This document shows, piece after piece, positions 1 to 13,082 of a DNA stretch of 64,000 nt. Source of the stretch: Actinacidiphila acididurans (lineage in GTDB: Bacteria; Actinomycetota; Actinomycetes; Streptomycetales; Streptomycetaceae); NCBI RefSeq assembly GCF_016918855.1, contig NZ_JADKYB010000004.1, forward strand, positions 248,001-312,000, in the 5' to 3' direction. Each line of letters opens with the position of its first letter. Within the stretch, counting starts at the first letter, position 1. The notes under the pieces were generated by a model, which did no database searches, had not been told where the DNA came from, and saw only the letters and a list, made by a program, of their open reading frames with translations. The position numbers and the translations under genes are program-made.

Positions 1-576
1 TTCTGCGCGCTGTGGACGGCCGCCGCGCTGTACGCCGGCTCGTCGAAGCAGCAGTTCCTGGAGCTGGCGCTGATGCCCAACTACGCGCCCTTCTTCGTCG
101 GCGGCATCGGCCTGTACCTGATCTACCGGTTCGGCCACGACGCCATCTCCTGGGGCGTGGTCGCCATCGGCTTCCTGCTCGGCCAGCGCTACGCCGTGCA
201 GGACCTGGTGGCCCCGGCCCACTCGCACGTCTTCTACCACCGCACGCAGTTCGGCGTCATCGCGGTGGTCACGTTCGGCTTCATCGCGGTGGCCGTGGTC
301 ACCCTGGTGCCGGCCGTCGCCAACGTCAACTGGCGCTGGCTGACCACCGCGGGCGCCCTGACGTACCCCTTCTACCTGGTGCACGAGCACCTGGGCTGGG
401 TCGCCATCGACAAGCTGCACCACAAGACCAGCCTGTCGGCCCCGGTGATCCTGTTCGGGACCGCGCTGTCGATGCTGGTGCTGGCCTACCTGCTGAACAA
501 GTTCGTGGAGAAGCCGCTGGCGCCACGGCTCAAGAAGCTGCTCCAGGCCCGGCCACGGCCCGCCGGAGCGCACTGA
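1..576 (+). CDS. Acyltransferase-3 family membrane protein, C-terminal part
   Basis: The reading frame is open from the first base, so the N-terminus lies outside the window; 191 residues remain. The piece is almost entirely hydrophobic helices and carries the late acyltransferase-3 (OafA/NodX-like) signature: a Pro-Phe-Tyr-Leu-Val-His-Glu-His stretch near residue 125, then a last helix ending NKFVEKPLAP. Family members O-acylate sugars or lipids at the membrane, or act as acyl carriers in secondary metabolism. The substrate cannot be told. A basic tail (RLKKLL) ends the protein. The next gene is convergent. Confidence 0.8.
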   Translation, partial: FCALWTAAALYAGSSKQQFLELALMPNYAPFFVGGIGLYLIYRFGHDAISWGVVAIGFLLGQRYAVQDLVAPAHSHVFYHRTQFGVIAVVTFGFIAVAVVTLVPAVANVNWRWLTTAGALTYPFYLVHEHLGWVAIDKLHHKTSLSAPVILFGTALSMLVLAYLLNKFVEKPLAPRLKKLLQARPRPAGAH

Positions 577-665
577 CCCGGCCGCCGACACGGCTGGTGT
601 ACGTACGAGGCCCGCGCCGGTCGGCGCGGGCCTCGGTCGTTACCGGCAGTCGTGGCCTGCTGTCG

Positions 666-1358
666 TCACCGGCGGCGGGCGTACCCCAGGACGGTGTCGC
701 TGAGCACGGACTCGACGGCGTCCAGCAGGGCCAGCGCGGAGGCCGCGATCTCCTCGGGGGGATCGCCGGCCCGGGACCGGGCGGCCAGGTGACGGAAGAG
801 CTGGTCCTGCGCCCAGCCGAGCTGCGCGGCGACCAGGTGCGGGAGCGGGTCGCCCGTCCGGGCACCGGTCTCGGCGGCCAGATTGGCGGCGAGGGCGTCC
901 ACCATGTCGCGGCCGACCCCGGCCAGCCGCATGGCCAGCACCGGTTCGGCCCGGACCATGGCCACGAAACGGCCGAACCCCTCGGTCAGGCCGACCATCC
1001 GGTCGTCCTCGCGGCGCAGTTCGGCCCGCAGCGCGGCCAGCACGGCGACCGCCGCGGACTGACCGCGCGCCCGGTCCCGGACCATCTGCACCATCCGCTC
1101 GGCGGACGCCTCCTCCGGGTAGAGGACCAGGTCCTCCTTGGAGGGGAAGTACGTGTAGACGGTGTTGACGGCGACCTCCGCGTTACGGGCCACCTCGGCG
1201 ATGGTCACCTTGGCGAAGCCGTGCCGCAGGAAAAGCCGGGTGGCGACCTCGGCGATGTGCCGCCGGGTCTGCCGACGCTTCTCGTCGCGCAGGCCGAGGG
1301 CAAGGATCTCCTCGGCGCGCGTGGGCTCGCGCAGGCCTCCGCGGGTGGTGTCGCTCAC
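666..1358 (-). CDS. TetR family transcriptional regulator
   Basis: 230 residues. The N-terminal TetR helix-turn-helix is at about residues 32-80 (ending VYTYFPSKEDLV, the typical TetR recognition-helix tail). The rest is the all-helical ligand-binding and dimerisation domain, which is not diagnostic. The gene follows the mutase gene (1498-3078) on the same strand with a 139-bp gap, so it probably has its own promoter. The gap holds a perfect short palindrome at 1424-1438, a natural candidate autoregulatory operator. Ligand and targets are unknown; control of the mutase is possible but only inferred from adjacency. Confidence 0.9.
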   Translation of the reverse strand: MSDTTRGGLREPTRAEEILALGLRDEKRRQTRRHIAEVATRLFLRHGFAKVTIAEVARNAEVAVNTVYTYFPSKEDLVLYPEEASAERMVQMVRDRARGQSAAVAVLAALRAELRREDDRMVGLTEGFGRFVAMVRAEPVLAMRLAGVGRDMVDALAANLAAETGARTGDPLPHLVAAQLGWAQDQLFRHLAARSRAGDPPEEIAASALALLDAVESVLSDTVLGYARRR

Positions 1359-1423
1359 GCGTCCATCGTAGGGCCTGACCGCTTTCCGTCCCGGGCGTTG
1401 GTCGTCACGTGGTGAATAGTCCT

Positions 1424-1438
1424 ACTTCATGTAGAAGT
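1424..1438. promoter_or_regulatory. Palindrome upstream of the TetR gene
   Basis: ACTTC-ATGTA-GAAGT, 5-bp arms with a 5-nt centre, lies 66 bp upstream of the TetR start codon and after the mutase stop codon. A second small palindrome, TCACGTGGTGA, lies at 1405-1415. TetR proteins usually bind such sites in their own promoter. The operator role is inferred. Confidence 0.35.
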
Positions 1439-1497
1439 TCACGGCGCGACCGGCACCCGGGACCGCGCACGCGTCCTCGGTCCCGGGAAACCGCAGG

Positions 1498-3078
1498 TCA
1501 GAAGGCGTCGGCGGGCACGTAGGTGCCCCACACCTCGCGCAGTGCGTTGCAGACCTCCCCGACCGTCGCCCGCAACCGCAGCGCCTCCTTCATCGGATAG
1601 AGGACGTTGTCGGTGCCCTGCGCGGCCTTCTGGAGCGTGGCGAGCGCGGCGTCGACGGCCTGCTGGTCGCGGTCGGCGCGCAGGGCCGCGAGGCGTTGGG
1701 CCTGCTGTGCCTCGATGGCCGGGTCCACCCGCAGCGGCTCGTACGGCTCCTCCTCGTCCAGCTTGAACCGGTTCACGCCCACCACCACCCGCTCCCCCGC
1801 GTCGGTCTCCAGAGCGATGCGATACGCGTTGCGCTCGATCTCCTGCTTCTGGAACCCCTTCTCAATCGCCGCCACCGCACCACCCAACTCCTCCACCCGC
1901 GCCATCAGATCCACGGTGGCCTTCTCCACGTCATCGGTGAGCTTCTCCACCACATACGACCCCGCGAACGGATCCACCGTCGCCGTCACATCCGTCTCGT
2001 ACGCCAGCACCTGCTGCGTACGCAACGCCAGACGCGCCGACTTGTCCGTCGGCAGGGCGATGGCCTCGTCGAAGGAATTGGTGTGCAACGACTGCGTACC
2101 GCCCATGACGGCTGCCAGGCCCTGCACCGCCACCCGCACCAGGTTGACCTCCGGCTGCTGCGCGGTCAACTGCACCCCCGCCGTCTGGGTATGGAACCGC
2201 AGCATCCACGACTTGGGATTCTTCGCCCCGAACTCCTCCCGCATCACCCGCGCCCAGATCCGCCGCGCCGCCCGGAACTTCGCCACCTCCTCCAAAAACG
2301 TCGTCCGCGCCACAAAGAAGAACGACAACCGCGGCGCGAAATCGTCCACATCCATCCCCGCCGCAATCGCCGTGCGCACGTACTCGATCCCGTCCGCCAA
2401 CGTGAACGCGATCTCCTGCGCCGGCGACGCACCCGCCTCCGCCATGTGATACCCCGAGATCGAGATCGTGTTCCACTTCGGGATCTCCGCCCGGCAGTAC
2501 GCGAAAATGTCCGCGATCAACCGCAGCGACGGTTTGGGCGGAAAAATGTACGTCCCCCGCGCGATGTACTCCTTCAGCACATCGTTCTGGATCGTCCCCG
2601 TCAACGCCCCCGCCGGGATCCCCTGCTCCTCCGCCACCAGCTGATACAGCAGCAGCAGTATCGCCGCCGGGGCGTTGATCGTCATCGAGGTGGACACCTG
2701 GTCCAGCGGGATCCCGCCGAACAGCACCCGCATGTCCTCCACCGAATCCACGGCCACCCCCACCTTGCCCACCTCACCATGAGCCAGCGGCGCATCGGAG
2801 TCATGACCCATCTGCGTGGGCAGATCGAACGCCACCGACAACCCCATCGTGCCGTTCGCGATCAACTGCCGATACCGCGCATTGGACTCAGCAGCCGTAC
2901 CGAACCCCGCATACTGCCGCATCGTCCACGGCCGCCCCGTATACATACTCCGGTACACACCCCGGGTGAACGGATACCCACCCGGCTCACCCAACGCCAC
3001 CACCGGATCCCACCCGGCCAGCACCTCAGGACCATAGACCGGCTCGATCGGCAGACCGGATTCCGAATCACGCGTCAT
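1498..3078 (-). CDS. Coenzyme B12-dependent acyl-CoA mutase large subunit (methylmalonyl-CoA mutase type)
   Basis: 526 residues covering only the substrate-binding TIM barrel; the cobalamin-binding domain is absent, as in isobutyryl- and 2-hydroxyisobutyryl-CoA mutases, where it is a separate small subunit. Landmarks are [17 protein letters not shown] (54-70), [11 protein letters not shown] (161-171), SGYHMAEAG (209-217; His211 matches the conserved active-site His) and a C-terminal WGTY motif. By alignment from memory, Tyr56 and Arg174 sit where methylmalonyl-CoA mutase has Tyr89 and Arg207 (isobutyryl-CoA mutase has Phe and Gln), so a carboxylated substrate is favoured. The enzyme would interconvert methylmalonyl-CoA and succinyl-CoA. 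The likely partner, a B12-binding subunit, is at 56804-57217. GGAGG lies just before the ATG. No mutase chaperone gene is adjacent. Confidence 0.88.
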
Positions 3079-3191
3079 AGGTCACGCCTCCCTGGACTGA
3101 GTGCAATGGCACGGTTACTACCGACGGGTTCAGCCACGGACTGTAGTGGGCGGCATGCGCCCGGTGGAGGGGGCGCGGCTGGGACCTTGCT

Positions 3192-3205
3192 CACAGTGTG
3201 AACGA
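3192..3205. promoter_or_regulatory. 14-bp motif CACAGTGTGAACGA shared with the small mutase subunit gene
   Basis: Identical 14-mers lie here, 114 bp upstream of the large mutase subunit start, and at 57284-57297, 67 bp upstream of the small subunit start, in the same orientation relative to the gene. Part of it is the palindrome TCACAGTGTGA. A shared operator is the simplest reading, but this is inference. Confidence 0.4.
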
Positions 3206-3299
3206 TCATTTCGGGGCTGTGCCGGGTCGCGGGGCCGGTGCCGGCGGCCGGGCGGCCCTCGGCCGGTGGCCGGCGGTCGTGACCGAGCGTACGCATGCC

Positions 3300-3352
3300 C
3301 GGGTGCCGGACGTACGTACGCCTGTCCCGTCCGTACGTACGTCCGGCACCCG
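3300..3352. repeat. Perfect 21-bp inverted repeat with 11-nt spacer
   Basis: Arms 3300-3320 and 3332-3352 are exact reverse complements, each containing CGTACGTACG and ending in CCGGCACCCG or its complement; the spacer is 3321-3331. It lies between divergent genes (222 bp from one start, 109 bp from the other), so it cannot be a terminator for either. It is either a cruciform/hairpin or two inverted protein-binding sites about 32 bp apart centre to centre. Confidence 0.85.
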
Positions 3353-3460
3353 TATCCGGCCGCTTGCCCGTCGGCGGGGCAGCGCAACCACCGCCGGCCG
3401 TGGGACTGTCTACGAAGTGACGAAGTCGACATACGACGACTTACCACACGGAGGGGGAAG

Positions 3461-4411
3461 GTGATTGCCGTGCGCAGGAGTTCACCGGCCGCGGTGGCGG
3501 CCGGCGTCGTGACGGCGGCGCTGGCCGCGACCGTGCTCACCGGGTGCGGGCCACTGGCCACCGGGGCCGCGCCCAAGGATTCGGGCGGCCCGCCGACCAC
3601 CGCTGTCACCAACGCGCGGGTCACGCCGGCGCCCGCCGCCACCCGGGCCCCGAGCACACCGGCCACCACCGCGCCGACCACCACGGCCCCGGCCGTGACC
3701 GCCGCCCCCACCACGCCACCGCCCACCGCCGTCGCCCCGGCGACCGCGGCGGCCACCACCAGGCCGCCGGTCGTTCCGGCCGCCTTCCTCGCGGCGGGCG
3801 ACAGCGGCACCCGAGTGCGGGAACTCCAGGCGCGGCTGGGCCAGCTCGGCCTGTTCAGCCGCCATCCGACCGGCTACTACGGCACGGTCACCGAGCACTC
3901 GGTCAGCGACTTCCAGGAACGGCACGGCCTGGCGCGGACCGGGAGCGTCAGCAAGACCCTGTGGAACCGGCTGACCGCGGTGACCCGCACGCCCACGCAC
4001 CAGGAGCTGTACCCGGCGGTGGCGGCCGAGCCGGCCGGCCGGCTCGACCCGCGCTGCCTGACCGGGCGCGCGATGTGCGTGAGCAAGACCACCCGGACCC
4101 TGTCCTGGGTGGTGAACGGCAAGGTGCTGGCCACGATGGACGTGCGGTTCGGATCGCAGTACACCCCGACCCGCGAGGGCCTGTTCCACGTGACGTTCAA
4201 GAGCCGTCACCACGTCTCGACGATCTATCACACGGCCATGCCGTACGCGATGTTCTTCAGCGGCGGCCAAGCGGTGCACTACTCGGCCGACTTCGCCGCC
4301 CGCGGCTACGCCGGGGCCTCGCACGGCAGCGTGAACGTCCGGGACAAGGCGGCCATCGCCAAGCTCTTCGACGAGGTGAAGGTCGGCGACAAGGTCGTCG
4401 TCTACTGGTGA
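3461..4411 (+). CDS. L,D-transpeptidase (YkuD)-like lipoprotein with Ser in place of the catalytic Cys
   Basis: 316 residues from GTG 3461, chosen because a GGAGGGGG ribosome binding site precedes it and the signal peptide then ends in a lipobox (LTGC, Cys29). Order: lipoprotein signal, Pro/Thr/Ala-rich wall-spanning linker (30-110), peptidoglycan-binding helical repeat (112-172), YkuD-like domain (about 200-316). YkuD enzymes form 3-3 crosslinks in peptidoglycan through a Cys in SHGC. Here the motif reads ASHGSVNV: His273 and His288 are kept but residue 290 is Ser (codon AGC at 4328-4330). The fold should be intact; classical thioester chemistry should not be possible unless Ser acts instead. 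It may bind wall or regulate rather than crosslink. Confidence 0.85.
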   Translation: MIAVRRSSPAAVAAGVVTAALAATVLTGCGPLATGAAPKDSGGPPTTAVTNARVTPAPAATRAPSTPATTAPTTTAPAVTAAPTTPPPTAVAPATAAATTRPPVVPAAFLAAGDSGTRVRELQARLGQLGLFSRHPTGYYGTVTEHSVSDFQERHGLARTGSVSKTLWNRLTAVTRTPTHQELYPAVAAEPAGRLDPRCLTGRAMCVSKTTRTLSWVVNGKVLATMDVRFGSQYTPTREGLFHVTFKSRHHVSTIYHTAMPYAMFFSGGQAVHYSADFAARGYAGASHGSVNVRDKAAIAKLFDEVKVGDKVVVYW

Positions 4412-4458
4412 CGGACCGAACGGACCGGAGCAGCCGGAGCGAATAAGAGCGAATAAAG

Positions 4459-4535
4459 GAGCGCGGCCGGGCAGGGGGAATGAGCCCGGCCGCGCTCTGC
4501 GGGCGGACCCCGATACGGGGAGAACCGGGGTCCGC
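4459..4535. terminator. Two tandem hairpins between convergent genes
   Basis: A perfect 14-bp stem pairs 4459-4472 with 4484-4497 (GAGCGCGGCCGGGC and its complement), followed by a second perfect 9-bp stem, 4503-4511 with 4527-4535 (GCGGACCCC). They lie between the transpeptidase-like gene and the convergent membrane-protein gene and probably end transcription both ways. No U-tract follows, as usual in streptomycetes. Confidence 0.7.
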
Positions 4536-4593
4536 GGGACCGGTGACCAGCCGATCCACTACCTACAGCGGATGCCTGCTCAAAAGTGTCACG

Positions 4594-5994
4594 TCACTGC
4601 CCGCCGTGCCTTCTCCCGCCGTGCCGCCCGCGCCCGGACCCGGCCTGTTTTCCCTGCTCGGCGCCGTTCCGCGAGCCGCCGGTCCGGGCCGCCTTCCCGG
4701 CCTTGGCACTCTGCCCGCCCTGGCCGCCGCCCTGGTTGCCCTGGCCGCCCTGACCGTTCTTCCCGCCCTGGCCGTCACCCTGGTTGCCGGAGTCGCCCGG
4801 CGTCATGGCCGTGTGCGTGACGCCCTGGCCGGTGTTGTCGCCGCCCTGGCCGCTGGAGTCGCCCTGACCGCTGCCGGAGTCCTTGTTGCCCGACTTGCCA
4901 GGCTTGTCGGTCTTATTCGAATTACCGGGATCGTCGGCCTTGTTGCTCTTCTGGTGGTCCGATCCGCCGTCCTGGCCACCATCCTGGCCGCCGCCCTGGT
5001 TGTCGCCCTGGTTGTCGCCCTGGTTGTCGCCGCCCTGACCGTTCCGGTCCTGACCGCCCTGGCCCGGCTCGCCGTTCGAACTGCCGTCCTGCCCGCCCTG
5101 GCCGCCGTTCTGCCCGTTCGTGCCCGGCTTCACCAGCCGCAGGCAGTACGCGGTCGTGGCCGCCGAAGGAGCCGTCACGTGCCGCTGGACGTCCAGCAGG
5201 TAGCCGCGGCACCAGGCGGCCGTGTGCGGCGGTTCCGCGGCGCCGGGCGCGCTGCCGGCGGACGGGCCCACCGGGGGCCGCGGTGTGGCGGAGGGGAGCT
5301 GCGAGGGGCCCGCGGTGCTGCCGTCCGGCGAGACCGCGGCGGGCGGCCGGCTGCTGACCGGTCCCGTACCCGAGCCGCCGCCGGGCACCGGCAGCCGGCC
5401 GGTGCCGGCCAGCGCCACCGCGGCGCCGCCCAGGGCCACCACCGACGCGAGCGCGGTCATGGCGACCTGACGGACCCGCACCCGGGGCCCGGTCCGCCGG
5501 CCCGCGACGGGCTGCCCGCCGGCCCGGCGCAGCAGCACCCGCGGCTCGTCGGGGCGGATCGCCGGGACCGCGGCCGGGGCATCGCGTGCGGCCCGGAACG
5601 CGGCGAGCGCCGCCTCCTCCCGCATCGGGTCGAGCACGTCCGGCCCGCGGCGCGCGGCGGCCAGTACCCCGGCCAGCCGCAGGGCGGCGCGACCGGCGGT
5701 GCCGTCGGGGTCGTCGGGCAGGTCCCCGGCGGTCCGCTCCGGCCCCGGCTGCCCGCTGCCCGGGAGCACCGGAGTGCCGTTCAGCAGCGCCTCGGCAAGA
5801 TATTCGGTGAGCCAGGTCTCCCGACCGCCGTGCGAGCCGACCGGACCGGCCGGGCCGCGGCGCGCCGGATCACGGTTGGACGCACCCGGAGCGGCGCCGC
5901 GCGGCAGGCCGCGGGCGGCACCGGATTCGCCGCGCTGAGGCGGCCGTCGCGGGTCGGGAGCGGGGGCGCCGTCCCGGCGCTGTGGGTTGCTCAT
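4594..5994 (-). CDS. Gly/Gln/Asn-rich single-pass membrane protein, partner of the ECF sigma factor
   Basis: 466 residues. Residues 1-175 are soluble with a helical stretch (WLTEYLAEALLNG, then about 120-160); one transmembrane segment is at about 177-199 (ending AAVALAGTGRLPVPG). A Pro/Ser spacer and a segment with three Cys precede a long tail rich in Gly, Gln, Asn, Asp and Lys (NQGD and GGQG repeats), ending very basic. It starts 9 bp after the sigma gene stop with GAGGAAG before the ATG, so the two are co-transcribed. Position and topology fit an anti-sigma factor or sigma-linked surface protein, but I see no zinc-binding anti-sigma motif, so function is unassigned. The tail should be disordered, outside the membrane if the N-terminus is cytoplasmic. 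Confidence 0.75.
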   Translation of the reverse strand: MSNPQRRDGAPAPDPRRPPQRGESGAARGLPRGAAPGASNRDPARRGPAGPVGSHGGRETWLTEYLAEALLNGTPVLPGSGQPGPERTAGDLPDDPDGTAGRAALRLAGVLAAARRGPDVLDPMREEAALAAFRAARDAPAAVPAIRPDEPRVLLRRAGGQPVAGRRTGPRVRVRQVAMTALASVVALGGAAVALAGTGRLPVPGGGSGTGPVSSRPPAAVSPDGSTAGPSQLPSATPRPPVGPSAGSAPGAAEPPHTAAWCRGYLLDVQRHVTAPSAATTAYCLRLVKPGTNGQNGGQGGQDGSSNGEPGQGGQDRNGQGGDNQGDNQGDNQGGGQDGGQDGGSDHQKSNKADDPGNSNKTDKPGKSGNKDSGSGQGDSSGQGGDNTGQGVTHTAMTPGDSGNQGDGQGGKNGQGGQGNQGGGQGGQSAKAGKAARTGGSRNGAEQGKQAGSGRGRHGGRRHGGQ

Positions 5995-6003
5995 GTCACT
6001 TCC

Positions 6004-6627
6004 TCACAGCGCCTTGGAGACCGAAAACGTCACATCGGGATGGCGGCCGTCCAGGTGGCCCTCCTGTTCCAGCAGTTCGGCCAGCCGGCGCAGGCCCCGG
6101 TGGGTGGCCATGCGGACCGATCCTGCCCGTTTGCCGAGGACGCGGGCGGCGCTGGTGGAGTCCAGGCCCATCACCACCCGCAGCAGCACCGCCTCGGCCT
6201 GTTCGCGGGGCAGCGCGGCGATCGCGGCCAGCGCCCGGTCGGTGGCGACCGCGTCCAGCGCCTCGCCCGCGGTGTCCGCGCGGTCGGGAAGCTGGAGGAG
6301 TTCGTCGACGCCCGCCCCCCATGCCGGGCGGCGGGCCCGCGCCCTGATGTGGTCCAGGGCCCGGTTGCGGGCGATCCGGGCCGCCCAGCCGCGTACGGAG
6401 GCGCCGTCGCCGCGGAAGCCCGGGAGGTCACGGGCGATCTGCAGCCAGGTCTCGGAGGCCACGTCCTCGGCGTCGGCGGGCCCGACCAGGCTGCGTACGT
6501 ACTGCAGCAGTTGTGGTTGCACGGCTCGGTAGACGACGCGGAACGCGGCCTCGTCGCCGTCCCGTGCCGCGCCCACCGCGGTGTCCAGATCCACGTCCGG
6601 CCCCACCCCCTCGAACACTGGAACCAT
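6004..6627 (-). CDS. ECF-type RNA polymerase sigma factor
   Basis: 207 residues with the two-domain ECF layout: region 2 at about 25-95 (core binding and -10 recognition, including DAEDVASETWLQIARD) and region 4 at about 135-190 (LPREQAEAVLLRVVMG followed by a helix-turn-helix). It would direct polymerase to a small regulon, perhaps its own promoter. The next gene downstream is the membrane protein at 4594-5994, a possible regulator. A GAGG site lies just before the ATG. A 12-mer, GTGACACTTTTG (6647-6658), lies upstream, and its reverse complement recurs at 4581-4592 past the end of the two-gene unit. Confidence 0.88.
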   Translation of the reverse strand: MVPVFEGVGPDVDLDTAVGAARDGDEAAFRVVYRAVQPQLLQYVRSLVGPADAEDVASETWLQIARDLPGFRGDGASVRGWAARIARNRALDHIRARARRPAWGAGVDELLQLPDRADTAGEALDAVATDRALAAIAALPREQAEAVLLRVVMGLDSTSAARVLGKRAGSVRMATHRGLRRLAELLEQEGHLDGRHPDVTFSVSKAL

Positions 6628-7067
6628 CCTGCCTCATCATCGGCCAGTGACACTTTTGGACCCCGATACGCCCTACTTCTTGGCGGCCGGGGACGCTCCT
6701 GTGGGGGGAGGCGGCCCCCGGCCGTCGTCTTGTCCGTTCTCCTCGCCGGCCCGCCCGATGACAAGCCGCTGTCGTGCCCGATGTGCCCGGCGGCCCGCCC
6801 GGTGACGGATCCGGTGGCGGGCCTGGTGACGGACCCGGCGGCCCGCGGGACCGAGCGTCAACACGTGGCCGTGGATTGTGCCGGAACGTGTGACACGCGG
6901 GCGCTCGCACCGGTACCGCGCGCCGTAGGCCCGTAGAGTAAAGGCCAGTCGATCCGGCCGCCCGGTGACCGCCGCCCGGTGCTCGCAGTGCCGTCCCGTA
7001 CCCCGCACCGTCCCGTGCGGCCAGCCGCCTTCGTCCCACCAGGAGCCCGCCGCTGTCCAGCGACCTC
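6628..7067. other. 440-bp divergent intergenic region (sigma factor / OHCU decarboxylase)
   Basis: No convincing gene. It contains an 18-bp imperfect direct repeat (GGTGACGGATCCGGTGGC at 6801-6818; two mismatches at 6825-6842; period 24) and a -10-like TAGAGT at 6934-6939 that could start the decarboxylase transcript. The sigma promoter should lie in the first 100 bp. Confidence 0.4.
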
Positions 7068-7556
7068 ATGCCCGATGGCCTGCGCCTGCTCAACCAGGCG
7101 CCGTCCGTGGCCGCCGAACTGGCCCTGCGCGACTGCTGCGGCAGTCACCGCTGGGCCCGGCGGGTGGCCGCGCACCGGCCCTACCCGACCCTCACGGTGC
7201 TGCTCGCCGCGGCCGACGAGGCGGCGTACGACCTGGCCCCCGGCGACCTCGCCGAGGCCCTGGCCGCCGAGACCGCCGAGCCGCTGCCCGCCGCGGCCTT
7301 CGGCGGCCCCAGCGTGCACACCGCGCTGCGCGCCGCCCACGCACACTACGAAGCGAAGTTCGGGCACGCGTTCCTGCTCGCCCTGGACGTGACCGACCCG
7401 GCCGAAGTGCTCGACCAGACCATGGCGGCGCTGCGCGAGCGGCTCGGCCACGACGCCGACGAGGAGGCCGTGGTCACCGCCGACCACCTGCGCCGCCTGT
7501 GCCGCGCCCGGCTGACCGCGCTGGCCACCGACCCCCGGGCGGTACCGGCCGCGTGA
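7068..7556 (+). CDS. 2-oxo-4-hydroxy-4-carboxy-5-ureidoimidazoline (OHCU) decarboxylase
   Basis: 162 residues matching the OHCU decarboxylase helical fold: an N-terminal LNQAPSVAAELALRDCCGS stretch, then HYEAKFGHAFLLALDV and MAALRERLGHDADEE, and the C-terminal LCRARLTAL helix. The enzyme makes S-allantoin from OHCU in uric acid breakdown; no other ureide gene is adjacent. The start is uncertain: AGGAG at 7041-7045 is too far from ATG 7068 but well placed for an in-frame CTG at 7053, which would add five residues. Assignment rests on family pattern, without the classical HPRIG motif, so a divergent member is possible. Confidence 0.72.
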   Translation: MPDGLRLLNQAPSVAAELALRDCCGSHRWARRVAAHRPYPTLTVLLAAADEAAYDLAPGDLAEALAAETAEPLPAAAFGGPSVHTALRAAHAHYEAKFGHAFLLALDVTDPAEVLDQTMAALRERLGHDADEEAVVTADHLRRLCRARLTALATDPRAVPAA

Positions 7557-7730
7557 CCCGGAAGCCCTGGTTCACCCGACCGTGCGGGATCGATCACACC
7601 TGACCGACCCCGCGATACGCGCCACAGGGGGCGTCGCTACCATGGCCGGGGCCGGTGGACCGTACCCGGCCGGGCGTGACCGACACCAACAAGCCGGCAC
7701 CCCTCGTCCCGCTCCCGGAGGGTTTTTTCC

Positions 7731-8111
7731 GTGCCGGCTGGAACGCTGTACCGCGGCCGGGAAGGCATGTGGTCCTGGGTGGCTCACCGAGTCACCGGTG
7801 TCCTCATCTTCTTCTTCCTGTTCGTGCACGTCCTCGACACCGCTTTGGTGCGCGTCTCGCCCGAGGACTACGACAAGGTCGTCTCTACTTACAAGACCCC
7901 CGTTGTCAGCCTGCTGGAATACGGCCTGGTGGCCGCGATCCTGTTCCACGCGCTGAACGGTCTGCGGATCATCGCGGTGGACTACTGGACCCAGGGCCCG
8001 CGCTACCAGAAGCAGATGTTCTGGTCGGTCATGGTGCTGTGGGTGATCCTGATGGCCGGGGCGGTCTACCCGGTCCTCGGCCACGCCGCACGAGTGCTGT
8101 TCGGGAGCTGA
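7731..8111 (+). CDS. sdhC: Succinate dehydrogenase cytochrome b556 subunit
   Basis: 126 residues, three membrane helices. Typical SdhC N-terminus: GTLYRGREGMWSWVAHRVTGV. The FHALNGLR segment near residue 70 holds a His of the heme/quinone region. It anchors complex II in the membrane and passes electrons from the iron-sulphur subunit to menaquinone. GTG start with GGAGGG 8 nt upstream. First gene of sdhCDAB; sdhD follows after 7 bp. No clear promoter is visible in the 174 bp upstream; TACCAT at 7637-7642 is a weak -10 candidate. Confidence 0.95.
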   Translation: MPAGTLYRGREGMWSWVAHRVTGVLIFFFLFVHVLDTALVRVSPEDYDKVVSTYKTPVVSLLEYGLVAAILFHALNGLRIIAVDYWTQGPRYQKQMFWSVMVLWVILMAGAVYPVLGHAARVLFGS

Positions 8112-8118
8112 GCGAGCC

Positions 8119-8601
8119 ATGGCCACTGAAGTCTCCACCGAGGACGCTGTCGAGCTGACCGGCTCCAGCTCCGCCTACGGCCCGGACAACCCGGCCCCGG
8201 TCATCGAGCCGCCCCGGGCCCGCACCCAGCGCTCCCCGCGCGCGACGCGCACCAACTTCGAGCTGTACGGCTGGCTGTTCATGCGGCTGTCCGGCGTCGT
8301 GCTGGTGGTCCTGGTCATCGGCCACCTGCTGATCCAGCTCGTGCTGGACGGCGGGGTCACCAAGGTCGGCTTCGCGTTCGTCGCGGGCCGCTGGGCCTCC
8401 CCGTTCTGGCAGGGCTGGGACCTGGTCATGCTGTGGCTGGCGATGCTGCACGGCGGCAACGGCCTGCGGACGGTCATCAATGACTACGCCGAGCAGCCGA
8501 ACACCCGCTTCTGGCTCAAGACGCTGCTGTTCACAGCGGTGGCCTTCACCATCGTGCTCGGCTCGCTGGTGATCTTCACCTTCGACCCGAACATCCGCTA
8601 A
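8119..8601 (+). CDS. sdhD: Succinate dehydrogenase hydrophobic membrane anchor subunit
   Basis: 160 residues. An N-terminal soluble extension of about 45 residues precedes three membrane helices. The segment MLHGGNGLRTVINDY mirrors SdhC and places the second His near the heme/quinone site. It is translated from the sdhC transcript (7-bp gap) and followed by sdhA after 60 bp. With SdhC it forms the membrane part of complex II. Confidence 0.95.
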   Translation: MATEVSTEDAVELTGSSSAYGPDNPAPVIEPPRARTQRSPRATRTNFELYGWLFMRLSGVVLVVLVIGHLLIQLVLDGGVTKVGFAFVAGRWASPFWQGWDLVMLWLAMLHGGNGLRTVINDYAEQPNTRFWLKTLLFTAVAFTIVLGSLVIFTFDPNIR

Positions 8602-8661
8602 TAGCCGCCACAGCCGCGTGAGCCTCGCGCCGCGCCAGGGCTGGACAGGGAAGCGACCCCC

Positions 8662-10416
8662 ATGCAGATCCACAAGTACGACACCGTCATCGTCGGCGCG
8701 GGCGGGGCGGGCATGCGCGCGGCCATCGAGGCCACCAAGCGCAGCCGCACCGCCGTGCTGACCAAGCTGTACCCCACCCGCTCCCACACCGGCGCCGCCC
8801 AGGGCGGCATGGCGGCGGCCCTCGCCAACGTCGAGGAGGACAACTGGGAGTGGCACACCTTCGACACGATCAAGGGCGGTGACTACCTGGTCGACCAGGA
8901 CGCCGCCGAGATCCTGGCGAAGGAGGCCATCGACGCGGTCCTGGACCTGGAGAAGATGGGCCTGCCGTTCAACCGGACGCCCGAGGGCCGGATCGACCAG
9001 CGGCGCTTCGGCGGCCACACCCGCAACCACGGCGAGGCCGCGGTCCGCCGGGCCTGCTACGCCGCCGACCGCACCGGCCACATGATCCTCCAGACGCTGT
9101 ACCAGAACTGCGTCAAGGAGGGCGTGGAGTTCTTCAACGAGTTCTACGTCCTGGACCAGCTCCTCGTCGAGGTCGACGGCGTCAAGCGGTCCGCGGGCGT
9201 GGTGGCGTACGAACTGGCCACCGGCGAGCTGCACGTCTTCCAGGCCAAGGCGGTCATCTACGCCTCCGGCGGCACCGGCAAGTTCTTCAAGGTGACCTCC
9301 AACGCGCACACCCTGACCGGCGACGGCCAGGCCGCGGTCTACCGGCGCGGGCTGCCGCTGGAGGACATGGAGTTCTTCCAGTTCCACCCGACGGGCATCT
9401 GGCGGATGGGCATCCTGCTCACCGAGGGCGCCCGCGGTGAGGGCGGCATCCTGCGCAACAAGGACGGCGAGCGCTTCATGGAGAAGTACGCGCCCGTCAT
9501 GAAGGACCTGGCCTCCCGCGACGTGGTCTCCCGCGCGATCTACACCGAGATCCGCGAGGGCCGCGGCTGCGGCCCGGACGGCGACCACGTCTACCTGGAC
9601 CTGACCCACCTGCCGCCGGAGCAGCTCGACGCGAAGCTGCCGGACATCACCGAGTTCGCCCGCACGTACCTGGGCATCGAGCCGTACACCGACCCGATCC
9701 CGATCCAGCCCACCGCGCACTACGCCATGGGCGGCATCCCCACCAACGTGCAGGGCGAGGTGCTGTCCGACAACATCACGGTCGTGCCGGGCCTGTACGC
9801 GGCCGGCGAGGTGGCCTGCGTGTCCGTGCACGGCGCCAACCGGCTGGGCACGAACTCGCTGCTGGACATCAACGTCTTCGGCCGCCGGGCCGGCATCGCC
9901 GCCGCCGAGTACGCGCACTCGCACGACTTCGTGGAGCTGCCGGAGGACCCGGCCGCCCTCGTCACCGATCTGGTGGCACGGCTGCGGGAGTCCGACGGCA
10001 CCGAGCGGGTCGCCGACATCCGCAGCGAGCTGCAGGAGACGATGGACGCCAACGTGATGGTGTTCCGTACCGAGCAGACCATCAAGACCGCGGTGGAGAA
10101 GATCGGCGAACTGCGCGAGCGCTACCGCAACGTCGCGATCCAGGACAAGGGCAAGCGGTTCAACACCGACCTGCTCGAGGCCGTCGAGCTGGGCAACCTG
10201 CTCGACCTGGCCGAGGTCATGGCGGTCTCCGCACTGGCCCGCAAGGAGTCCCGCGGCGGCCACTACCGCGAGGACTACCCGAACCGCGACGACGTGAACT
10301 TCATGCGGCACACGATGGCCTACCGCGAGACCGACTCGACGGGTGTGGAGTCGATCCGCCTGGACTACAAGCCGGTCGTGCAGACCCGCTACCAGCCGAT
10401 GGAGCGTAAGTACTGA
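8662..10416 (+). CDS. sdhA: Succinate dehydrogenase flavoprotein subunit
   Basis: 584 residues, full length. FAD-binding start [16 protein letters not shown] (residues 10-25), then the covalent-FAD His region [13 protein letters not shown], the substrate-site segments QFHPTGI and [16 protein letters not shown], and the C-terminal [14 protein letters not shown]. It oxidises succinate to fumarate in the TCA cycle and passes electrons through bound FAD to SdhB. Its stop overlaps the sdhB start by one base (TGATG), implying coupled translation. A long open frame on the other strand is a GC-bias shadow. Confidence 0.97.
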
Positions 10417-11189
10417 TGAGCACCCAGACGCTCGACAACCACTCCGCCGCGCTGGACGCGGCCGAGAGCGCCGCCTCCCACCTGATCACGATCGTGCTGC
10501 GGGTCCGCCGGTTCAACCCGGAGGTCGCGGCCGAGGCGCAGTGGGTGGACTACCAGATCCCGATCGACCCCAAGGAGCGGGTGCTCGACGCCCTCCACAA
10601 GGTCAAGTGGGAGATCGACGGTTCGCTGACCTTCCGCCGCTCGTGCGCGCACGGCGTGTGCGGGTCGGACGCGATGCGGATCAACGGGCGCAACCGGCTG
10701 GCCTGCAAGACGCTGATCAAGGACATCAACCCGGAGAAGCCGATCACGATCGAGCCCATCAAGGGCCTGACCGTGCTGAAGGACCTCGTGGTCGACATGG
10801 ACCCGTTCTTCCAGGCCTACCGCGACGTGATGCCCTTCCTGATCACCAAGGGCAACGAGCCCACCCGGGAGCGGCTGCAGTCCGCCGCCGACCGGGAGCG
10901 CTTCGACGACACCACCAAGTGCATCCTGTGCGCGGCCTGCACCTCCTCCTGCCCGGTGTTCTGGAACGACGGCCAGTACTTCGGCCCGGCCGCGATCGTC
11001 AACGCGCACCGCTTCATCTTCGACTCGCGCGACGAGGGCGGTGAGCAGCGCCTGGAGATCCTGAACGACAAGGACGGCGTCTGGCGCTGCCGCACCACCT
11101 TCAACTGCACGGACGCGTGCCCGCGCGGCATCGAGGTCACCAAGGCGATCCAGGAAGTGAAGCGCGCGCTGATCACCCGCCGTATTTGA
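10416..11189 (+). CDS. sdhB: Succinate dehydrogenase iron-sulphur subunit
   Basis: 257 residues. N-terminal 2Fe-2S domain with SCAHGVCGSDAM and a later Cys (RLAC); C-terminal domain with CILCAACTSSCP and CTDACPRGI, the ligands of the 4Fe-4S and 3Fe-4S clusters. It carries electrons from SdhA to the SdhC/SdhD quinone site. Last gene of the operon. Twenty-four bases after its stop begins a 66-bp element that recurs after mdh, followed by a terminator hairpin. Confidence 0.96.
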   Translation: MSTQTLDNHSAALDAAESAASHLITIVLRVRRFNPEVAAEAQWVDYQIPIDPKERVLDALHKVKWEIDGSLTFRRSCAHGVCGSDAMRINGRNRLACKTLIKDINPEKPITIEPIKGLTVLKDLVVDMDPFFQAYRDVMPFLITKGNEPTRERLQSAADRERFDDTTKCILCAACTSSCPVFWNDGQYFGPAAIVNAHRFIFDSRDEGGEQRLEILNDKDGVWRCRTTFNCTDACPRGIEVTKAIQEVKRALITRRI

Positions 11190-11213
11190 TCCTGTCCGCC
11201 TCTTTTCGCGGCC

Positions 11214-11279
11214 CTCGCACCGCTCGGCCCTGGCGGGCCTCCCGGGCTTCGGACCGCTGCGCCGGACTCCGTCCGGCGG
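11214..11279 (+). repeat. 66-bp 3'-end element, copy after sdhB
   Basis: Matches the complement of 34413-34478 at 59 of 66 positions by my alignment: the first 28 and last 21 bases are identical. It contains two potential hairpins, GGCCC-TGGC-GGGCC and GCCGGAC-TCC-GTCCGGC. Both copies are in the sense direction, 24 nt (sdhB) and 17 nt (mdh) after the stop codon. Confidence 0.85.
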
Positions 11280-11313
11280 AGAGGGTTGCGCAAGGCCGCA
11301 GTCCTCTCCCCGT

Positions 11314-11347
11314 GGGTCCCGTTCCGCTGTCACGGCGGACGGGACCC
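11314..11347 (+). terminator. Terminator hairpin after sdhCDAB
   Basis: GGGTCCCGT-T-CCG (11314-11326) pairs with CGG-ACGGGACCC (11336-11347), with one bulged T. GTTTTCCC follows within a few bases. It lies between sdhB and the convergent histidine kinase gene. Confidence 0.7.
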
Positions 11348-11393
11348 GCGGCGTTTTCCCGGGCGTCGGAGTCGTACCTTGAGGTCCGGACAC

Positions 11394-13082
11394 TCATCCA
11401 AGAAGAGGCTCAACGGGTGACCCCACCGCCGCCAGCGGCAGCCGAACCGTCACCGTAAGCCCCTCCCCCGGCGCCGTGTCCAGGCTCACCGTCCCCCGGT
11501 GGGCCTGGACGAGCGCCTGGACGATGGACATACCCAGGCCCGCCCCTCCCGTGTCGTGGGCGCGTTGCGGGTCGGCCCGGAAGAAGCGGTCGAAGACGCG
11601 CGCCGCGTCGTGGGGGTGAAGCCCGGGGCCCGAGTCCGCGATGCGCAGGAGCATGTGGTCGGGCCCGGCGGTGACGGAGACGGTGAGGGGGGATGCCTCG
11701 GGCGTGTGGACGCGGACGTTGCCGAGGAGGTTGCCCACGACTTGGCGCAGGCCGGCCTCGTCGCCGAGGACGCAGGGGGGCGTGGATCCGTCGGGCGCAG
11801 GAATCAGCAAAGTCATGGGGCGTTCCGGCTGCTGCGCGGCGAGATCCTGCGCGGCCTCGCGGACCAGGCAGCACAGGTCGACCGGCTGGAAGCCGAGCGC
11901 CGGGCGGTCCTCGAGGCGGGCGAGGGCGAGGAGTTCGTCGACGAGGCGGCTCATCCGCAGGGCCTCGGCGGAGACGCGGCCGAGGGCCCGTTCCTTCTCG
12001 TCGCGGTCGAGCATGCCCTTCTCGTAGAGCTGGAGGTAGCCGCGGACGGAGGCGAGCGGGGTGCGCAGTTCGTGGGAGGCGTCGGCGAGGAACTGCCGCA
12101 GTTGGGTGGTGGCGCGTTCGCTCTCGGTGAGGGCGGTCTCGATCTGCTGGAGCATCGCGTTGAGCGCCTCGCTGAGCTGGGCGACCTCCAGGGATCCGTC
12201 GCGGGTGGTGCGGATGCGGCGGGACAGGTCGCCCTGGGAGATCGCGGAGGCCGTCTCCACCATGTCCTCCAGCGGGCTCAGCCGGCGGCGGGCGGCGGTC
12301 AGCGATCCGGCGGCCAGCAGGGCGAGCAGCACCACGCCCGTGGCGCTCTCCCAGATCAGCAGCTTGCCGATGGCGTGCTTGACGCCGCTGAGCCGGATGC
12401 CCTTGACCAGGATCGTGCCGTCCGAGAGGCGGACCGCGGCCACCCGGTACTCCCGCGAGCCGCTGCTGACCGTGGCCGCCTTTCCGCTGCGGGCGAGGCC
12501 CGCCGGGTCCGGGAGGGCGGCGGCCACCCGCCGCTGCTCGGCGCTGACCTGCCGCGTACCGGCGACTGCCGGTGCCGAGCCGCTGCCCGGGCCGGCGGCC
12601 GTGCTCGTACCGCCGTGCGCCCCGGCTGACCGCGCGGCCGGGCCCGAGCCGATCGAGCCGCCCGGACCGACCGGCCCGTTCTGGCAGAAGGCCGCAGGTT
12701 TGCCCTCCTTGTCCAGGACGATGAACAGGTCCTGCTGGAAGGCCTCGGAGATCGCCGAGCTGCCGTGCCCGGATTCCAGCAGGTCGGCGAGCGTGCACAG
12801 CTGCCGCATGCTGCTGGTGGCGAGGGTGATCTGCCGCAGCGAGTCCTGGGAGCCCTTGAGCGAGTCGTCGATCTGGCCGATGAGCACCATGTACGTGGCC
12901 CAGATGCTCGCGGCGGCGGCCAGCAGCAGGCCGACGGCGAGGAAGGTCACGTTGGCGATGGTGAACCGGCCGCGCAGCGACTTCGGCTTGGGCCACCACC
13001 CGCACTTGTCGGTCCCGGGCGGGCTCGGCCGACCGTCACGGGAACGGATCGGCGGACGACTCGGGCTCAGGAGATATCTCAC
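11394..13082 (-). CDS. Two-component sensor histidine kinase
   Basis: 562 residues from GTG 13082, which overlaps the response-regulator stop (GTGA), so translation is coupled. Order: transmembrane helix 41-68, extracytoplasmic sensor domain about 70-240 with a Gly/Ser/Ala-rich insert, second helix 241-262, HAMP linker to about 320, dimerisation domain with phospho-acceptor His337 in SHELRTP, then the ATP-binding domain (NLLGN, DSGPGL, GGAGLGMSIV). OmpR-partner type. The signal is unknown. The neighbouring divergent MMPL transporter at 14054 is a plausible target, as is common for such pairs. Confidence 0.93.
   Translation of the reverse strand: MRYLLSPSRPPIRSRDGRPSPPGTDKCGWWPKPKSLRGRFTIANVTFLAVGLLLAAAASIWATYMVLIGQIDDSLKGSQDSLRQITLATSSMRQLCTLADLLESGHGSSAISEAFQQDLFIVLDKEGKPAAFCQNGPVGPGGSIGSGPAARSAGAHGGTSTAAGPGSGSAPAVAGTRQVSAEQRRVAAALPDPAGLARSGKAATVSSGSREYRVAAVRLSDGTILVKGIRLSGVKHAIGKLLIWESATGVVLLALLAAGSLTAARRRLSPLEDMVETASAISQGDLSRRIRTTRDGSLEVAQLSEALNAMLQQIETALTESERATTQLRQFLADASHELRTPLASVRGYLQLYEKGMLDRDEKERALGRVSAEALRMSRLVDELLALARLEDRPALGFQPVDLCCLVREAAQDLAAQQPERPMTLLIPAPDGSTPPCVLGDEAGLRQVVGNLLGNVRVHTPEASPLTVSVTAGPDHMLLRIADSGPGLHPHDAARVFDRFFRADPQRAHDTGGAGLGMSIVQALVQAHRGTVSLDTAPGEGLTVTVRLPLAAVGSPVEPLLG

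Follow-up and report, generated by a model that had tools for sequence, protein, structure and literature searches.

Does a gene of the soil actinomycete Actinacidiphila acididurans whose product has the domains of an L,D-transpeptidase, with Ser at the position of the catalytic Cys, encode a working enzyme, a protein with another role, or an ordinary enzyme with one misread base? The gene lies in a stretch of 64 kb of genomic DNA, referred to here as the window. It had been described before from its letters only, and this preliminary description had left three explanations for the Ser codon side by side: a recent change, a selected one or a sequencing error.

Gene and domain composition

Translation of 3461-4411 (+) gives a protein of 316 amino acids, consisting of a lipobox, a Pro/Thr/Ala-rich linker, a PG_binding_1 domain and a YkuD domain, in that order (Table 1). 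Pfam scores were 51.9 bits for PG_binding_1 (cut-off 23) and 56 bits for YkuD (PF03734, curated cut-off 23.4). Together with the lipobox LTGC, these scores agree with the earlier naming of the product as an L,D-transpeptidase-like lipoprotein. The 3′ end was retained as first given. The start was moved, comparison with the nearest relative (genome G032) suggesting GTG 3470, three codons after 3461, as the start codon, whereby Ser290 would become residue 287 of 313.

Both His residues of the YkuD active site are kept: His273, which we take by homology to be the active-site His, and His288 of the SHG motif. The nucleophilic Cys of [S/T]HGC, expected in an active L,D-transpeptidase, is absent; the motif reads SHG-S-VN (SHGSVN), with Ser290 encoded by AGC. 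On this point, as on the codon being one base away from Cys, the preliminary description was correct.

A structure was predicted from a 42-row alignment, resulting in five models with a mean pLDDT of 69.0 to 86.2 (best model: 86.2, with pTM 0.62). Following a Foldseek search with the predicted model, the top match was an L,D-transpeptidase (E 3.6e-14), in keeping with a YkuD fold, with TM-scores below 0.5 for this two-domain query. The entries 4lpq (Xylanimonas) and 5bmq (Stackebrandtia) came first and were the best matches in both sequence and fold, at 22-27% identity and with SHGC as the aligned motif in both. Entries for LdtMt2, among them the C354S mutant 8pxy, ranked lower, and LdtMt2 chains could be aligned to the model across about 129 columns, at about 3 Å.

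Table 1. Features of the gene and its upstream region (window positions; residues counted from a start at 3461)
Feature	Position	Strand	Basis or remark
Sigma-E-like promoter, AACC-N17-TGTCTA	3383..3412	+	Motif likeness; common to most genus relatives examined
L,D-transpeptidase-type lipoprotein gene	3470..4411	+	Start first placed at 3461; GTG 3470 fits G032 better
Lipobox LTGC, lipidated Cys at residue 29	3536..3547	+	Interpretive reading
PG_binding_1 domain, residues 115-171	3803..3973	+	Pfam
YkuD catalytic domain, residues 204-314	4070..4402	+	Pfam, structure model, Foldseek
First active-site His, residue 273	4277..4279	+	Translation
His of SHG, residue 288	4322..4324	+	Translation
AGC codon, Ser290 in place of nucleophilic Cys	4328..4330	+	Translation, orthologue comparison

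Ser and Cys among relatives

Genome contigs were scanned with search peptides from which the SHG motif had been excluded, resulting in at least 42 loci. The 42nd locus (L053) matched residues 54-171 only and was dropped; among the matches listed, all 41 orthologues carry Cys (TGC or TGT) at the position of Ser290. Later pattern searches used ASHG-x-VNV[R/S] with the residue at the Cys position left free. This pattern matched 27 of 60 relatives besides A. acididurans and 25 of the 34 other genomes of the genus (nine without a match), in every case with Cys. Across the family it matched 192 of 394 genomes, 202 being without a match, and inspection by eye of the matches listed gave Cys in 149/149 rows other than that of A. 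acididurans. A pattern covering the AGY codons of Ser, not TCN, matched one of the 394 genomes of the family, A. acididurans itself, and none of the 393 others. The counts overlap, since several of the at least 41 orthologues come from species that recur in the later searches, with identical rows; Actinacidiphila rows identical to named loci were those of A. bryophytorum, A. cocklensis, A. paucisporea, A. rubida and A. glaucinigra. The nearest orthologue (G032; 87% identical over 212 columns, SH-aLRT 98) also has Cys.

The Ser codon appears, from these comparisons, to be private to the A. acididurans genome. Because Cys is invariant in the listed orthologues and the AGY-Ser match is the only one among the 394 family genomes, the site is not a loosely variable one. 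A conserved Ser-type YkuD subfamily was considered and rejected (0/41 listed orthologues, 0/149 other listed rows, 0/393 genomes for AGY-Ser). The comparison of orthologues had been proposed in the preliminary description, which counted Cys in all close orthologues against its proposal; wherever the position was read, Cys is what was found, including 25/25 genus matches. A shared Ser-type lineage thus falls, while a recent change and a sequencing error both stand. In titles and abstract openings of the literature, a scope that mostly excludes subscription papers, no natural YkuD protein with a Cys-to-Ser change was found.

Other YkuD genes in the genome

The A. acididurans genome gave 11 YkuD matches: seven with [S/T]HGC, one with SHGG, one with SHGS (the gene studied here), one with TAGC (L009) and one weak match (L011). 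A second, Cys-bearing copy of the gene was not found in this genome, the other match being weak and confined to residues 95-173.

The SHGG protein, L008 (C22:271549-271938), adjoins its paralogue L006 (C22:269470-269781), to which it is 54% identical, and is without both active-site residues, with His changed to Tyr and SHGC to SHGG. When five genomes of the genus were searched by pattern, two matches were obtained in A. acididurans only, one in each of three genomes and none in one; the four other matched copies beside L008 keep the His.

Locus and promoter region

The A. acididurans gene is the syntenic orthologue of a conserved Actinacidiphila L,D-transpeptidase lipoprotein. Within the fetched flanks, a methylmalonyl-CoA mutase gene is present in 32 of the 41 listed loci and a sigma-factor homologue in 36, with sdhC and sdhD also present in six. 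The Streptomycetaceae YkuD lipoproteins at these loci (L012-L052, at least 41) have the PG-binding and YkuD domains and the stretch HYS-x-DFAARGY-x-GASHG-x-VNVR in common with the Ser290 protein, as well as, at 32 of the loci, the mutase neighbour and, in relatives of the genus, the sigma-E-like promoter; among the matches listed, Ser for Cys distinguishes A. acididurans alone. They may be of the type represented in Streptomyces coelicolor by SCO3194 or SCO4934. In the mutase of A. acididurans (1498-3078), residue 502 is Leu, where all 33 compared orthologues have Ala. A protein with sigma-70 regions 2 and 4 is encoded at 6004-6627 (-), ahead of a Gly/Asn/Gln-rich protein (4594-5994, -) that gave no Pfam match.

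The upstream motif, CGCAACC...TGTCTA, resembles the sigma-E targets listed for S. coelicolor, which in the available part of that study include two L,D-transpeptidase lipoproteins, sco3194 and sco4934 (PMC6767563). Among 32 usable upstream regions the motif occurred in 19, against 2.9 expected from single-base shuffles. These 32 were counted out of 55 sequences given and include three pairs with identical protein; the regions were set by a rough start-codon rule (3494 for the A. acididurans gene). Of the counted Actinacidiphila rows L019 alone is without the motif, which in the others ends in TGTCTA. With this motif retained, the gene is probably still expressed. Sigma-70-like promoters and intrinsic terminators were not found in 3079-4600, nor were known RNA elements above Rfam thresholds in 1-12000.

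The intergenic region between the divergent mutase and transpeptidase genes also holds a perfect 21-bp inverted repeat with an 11-nt spacer (3300-3352). Its core, CGTACGTACG, occurs nowhere else in the window, and the segment that holds the repeat has no aligned counterpart in G032.

Condition of the remaining protein

Alignment of the 41 listed orthologues gives 47 invariant columns over the final 125 residues, and A. acididurans breaks the Cys column only. Private departures, one to three per sequence in columns that otherwise never vary, also occur in nine of the 41, so such a departure is not rare as such; what is rare is its position. When G032 is included and residues 105-316 are considered, A. 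acididurans breaks 1 of 55 invariant columns, again that of Cys, and 12 of the 42 other sequences break at least one. With a mean difference of 0.099 from six sister species, set against 0.115 between sister clades, the YkuD part has a divergence ratio of 0.86; the corresponding values are 1.24 for the PG-binding/linker part and 1.01-1.78 for five neighbour genes. A long-dead gene with a decaying catalytic domain was rejected on the YkuD ratio and the single broken column of 55.

The substitution, if real, is most likely recent, as judged from these alignments, although with no relative closer than 87% identity it is not closely datable. Some tension with a recent loss of function comes from dN/dS over 212 residues, which against the six sister species is 0.24-0.40 and among those species 0.16-0.32, placing A. 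acididurans somewhat above the sister range, with overlapping ranges; the divergence ratios place this excess in the PG-binding/linker part.

A wrong base introduced in sequencing or assembly would give the same picture. The true codon would then be TGC and the gene that of an ordinary L,D-transpeptidase, an explanation that we regard as rather unlikely while giving it real weight: the change is confined to a single genome and lies one base from Cys, and the Cys column is the only place where the protein departs from columns invariant among the listed orthologues. The surrounding sequence argues the other way. Six genes at the locus together showed three departures in 702 invariant columns, no more than the average of the relatives; sdhA, for which no comparison was obtained, was left out. 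The three departures are residue 502 of the mutase, the transpeptidase Cys and one in an OHCU-decarboxylase-like gene, with none in the sigma factor, sdhC or sdhD. Each of the six genes aligns as a single piece covering 90% or more, with no frameshift apparent, and the reported completeness and contamination of the assembly are 100% and 1.4%. The sequence is thus not generally poor, and a single wrong base is still compatible with these results. The idea of a generally error-rich sequence was dropped, no sign of it being present in the six genes.

Interpretation

In the usual reaction, according to the available part of a review, the catalytic Cys binds the donor tetrapeptide through its diaminopimelate, with release of D-Ala (PMC12729407). 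For the normal form of the present protein, the lipidated N-terminus would hold it to the membrane, the Pro/Thr/Ala-rich linker and PG-binding domain reaching into the peptidoglycan. The Cys of SHGC, aided by His, would attack the L-centre of diaminopimelate in the donor tetrapeptide, and after release of D-Ala the acyl group would pass to an acceptor stem, resulting in a 3-3 cross-link.

Two engineered proteins are close counterparts of the Ser290 form. LdtMt2 C354S (PDB 8pxy) shares the fold and has Cys replaced by Ser at the equivalent point of the motif; it differs in being laboratory-made and in that no PG_binding_1 match was seen there, the YkuD part alone being aligned. In the available text, it converted none of four peptidoglycan monomers into product, still bound substrate in the crystal and, per earlier reports cited there, did not become covalently linked to several penems and carbapenems (PMC11410929). 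LdtJ C390S of A. baumannii combines PG-binding and YkuD domains with a Cys-to-Ser change, as the Ser290 protein does, but is engineered and from a Gram-negative organism. In the parts of the report available, cross-linking, D-amino-acid incorporation and carboxypeptidase activity were all lost in this mutant, and growth and shape were normal, also when the YkuD domain was deleted (PMC12548408).

By analogy with these two mutants, loss of activity is the likeliest consequence of Ser290. Our preferred reading, which we hold to be probable though well short of certain, is that a conserved Actinacidiphila L,D-transpeptidase has recently lost its nucleophile in this one strain through a single substitution in the nucleophile codon. 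The acyl-enzyme should then no longer form, leaving a folded, substrate-binding wall lipoprotein that is catalytically dead, and other L,D-transpeptidases, presumably the seven [S/T]HGC paralogues, would cover the loss.

The intact columns around Ser290 would also fit a binding role that has been retained, as the preliminary description had also suggested. The Ser protein would then be kept by selection as a lipoprotein binding peptidoglycan or a partner. The conserved YkuD columns and the intact promoter motif are consistent with such a role, as are substrate binding by LdtMt2 C354S and normal growth with LdtJ C390S. Intact columns are, however, expected anyway for a recent mutation, and Ser was present in no relative read, so that nothing points to its having been maintained by selection across a speciation event. 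Moreover, growth and shape with LdtJ survive deletion of YkuD, so that in the text available no binding role is shown for YkuD itself. We consider this role improbable, and equally so the fuller proposal that in a natural strain one base has turned an envelope-stress L,D-transpeptidase into an expressed and useful lipoprotein that binds substrate without cross-linking; if true, this would be a natural counterpart of the laboratory Cys-to-Ser 'dead' enzyme.

That Ser290 serves as an oxygen nucleophile, for weak transpeptidase, carboxypeptidase or beta-lactam chemistry, seems highly improbable. The His residues are kept, and Ser-dependent turnover of beta-lactams is described, in the available part of one paper, for a YafK protein of the YkuD superfamily (PMC13400389). 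The residue responsible there, Ser132, is a different one and the Cys is still present, so that it provides no precedent for Ser at the nucleophile position. LdtMt2 C354S and LdtJ C390S are both inactive, the former also towards the beta-lactams named above, and the changed enzyme put forward in the preliminary description accordingly found no support in the available text.

If the base is real, one L,D-transpeptidase of A. acididurans has been knocked out naturally at its active site while at least seven others are kept in the genome, a situation that would be useful for asking what the lipoprotein does without its chemistry. If it is a base-call error, the gene is ordinary. Either way, caution is warranted against calling such a protein an active transpeptidase from domain matches alone.
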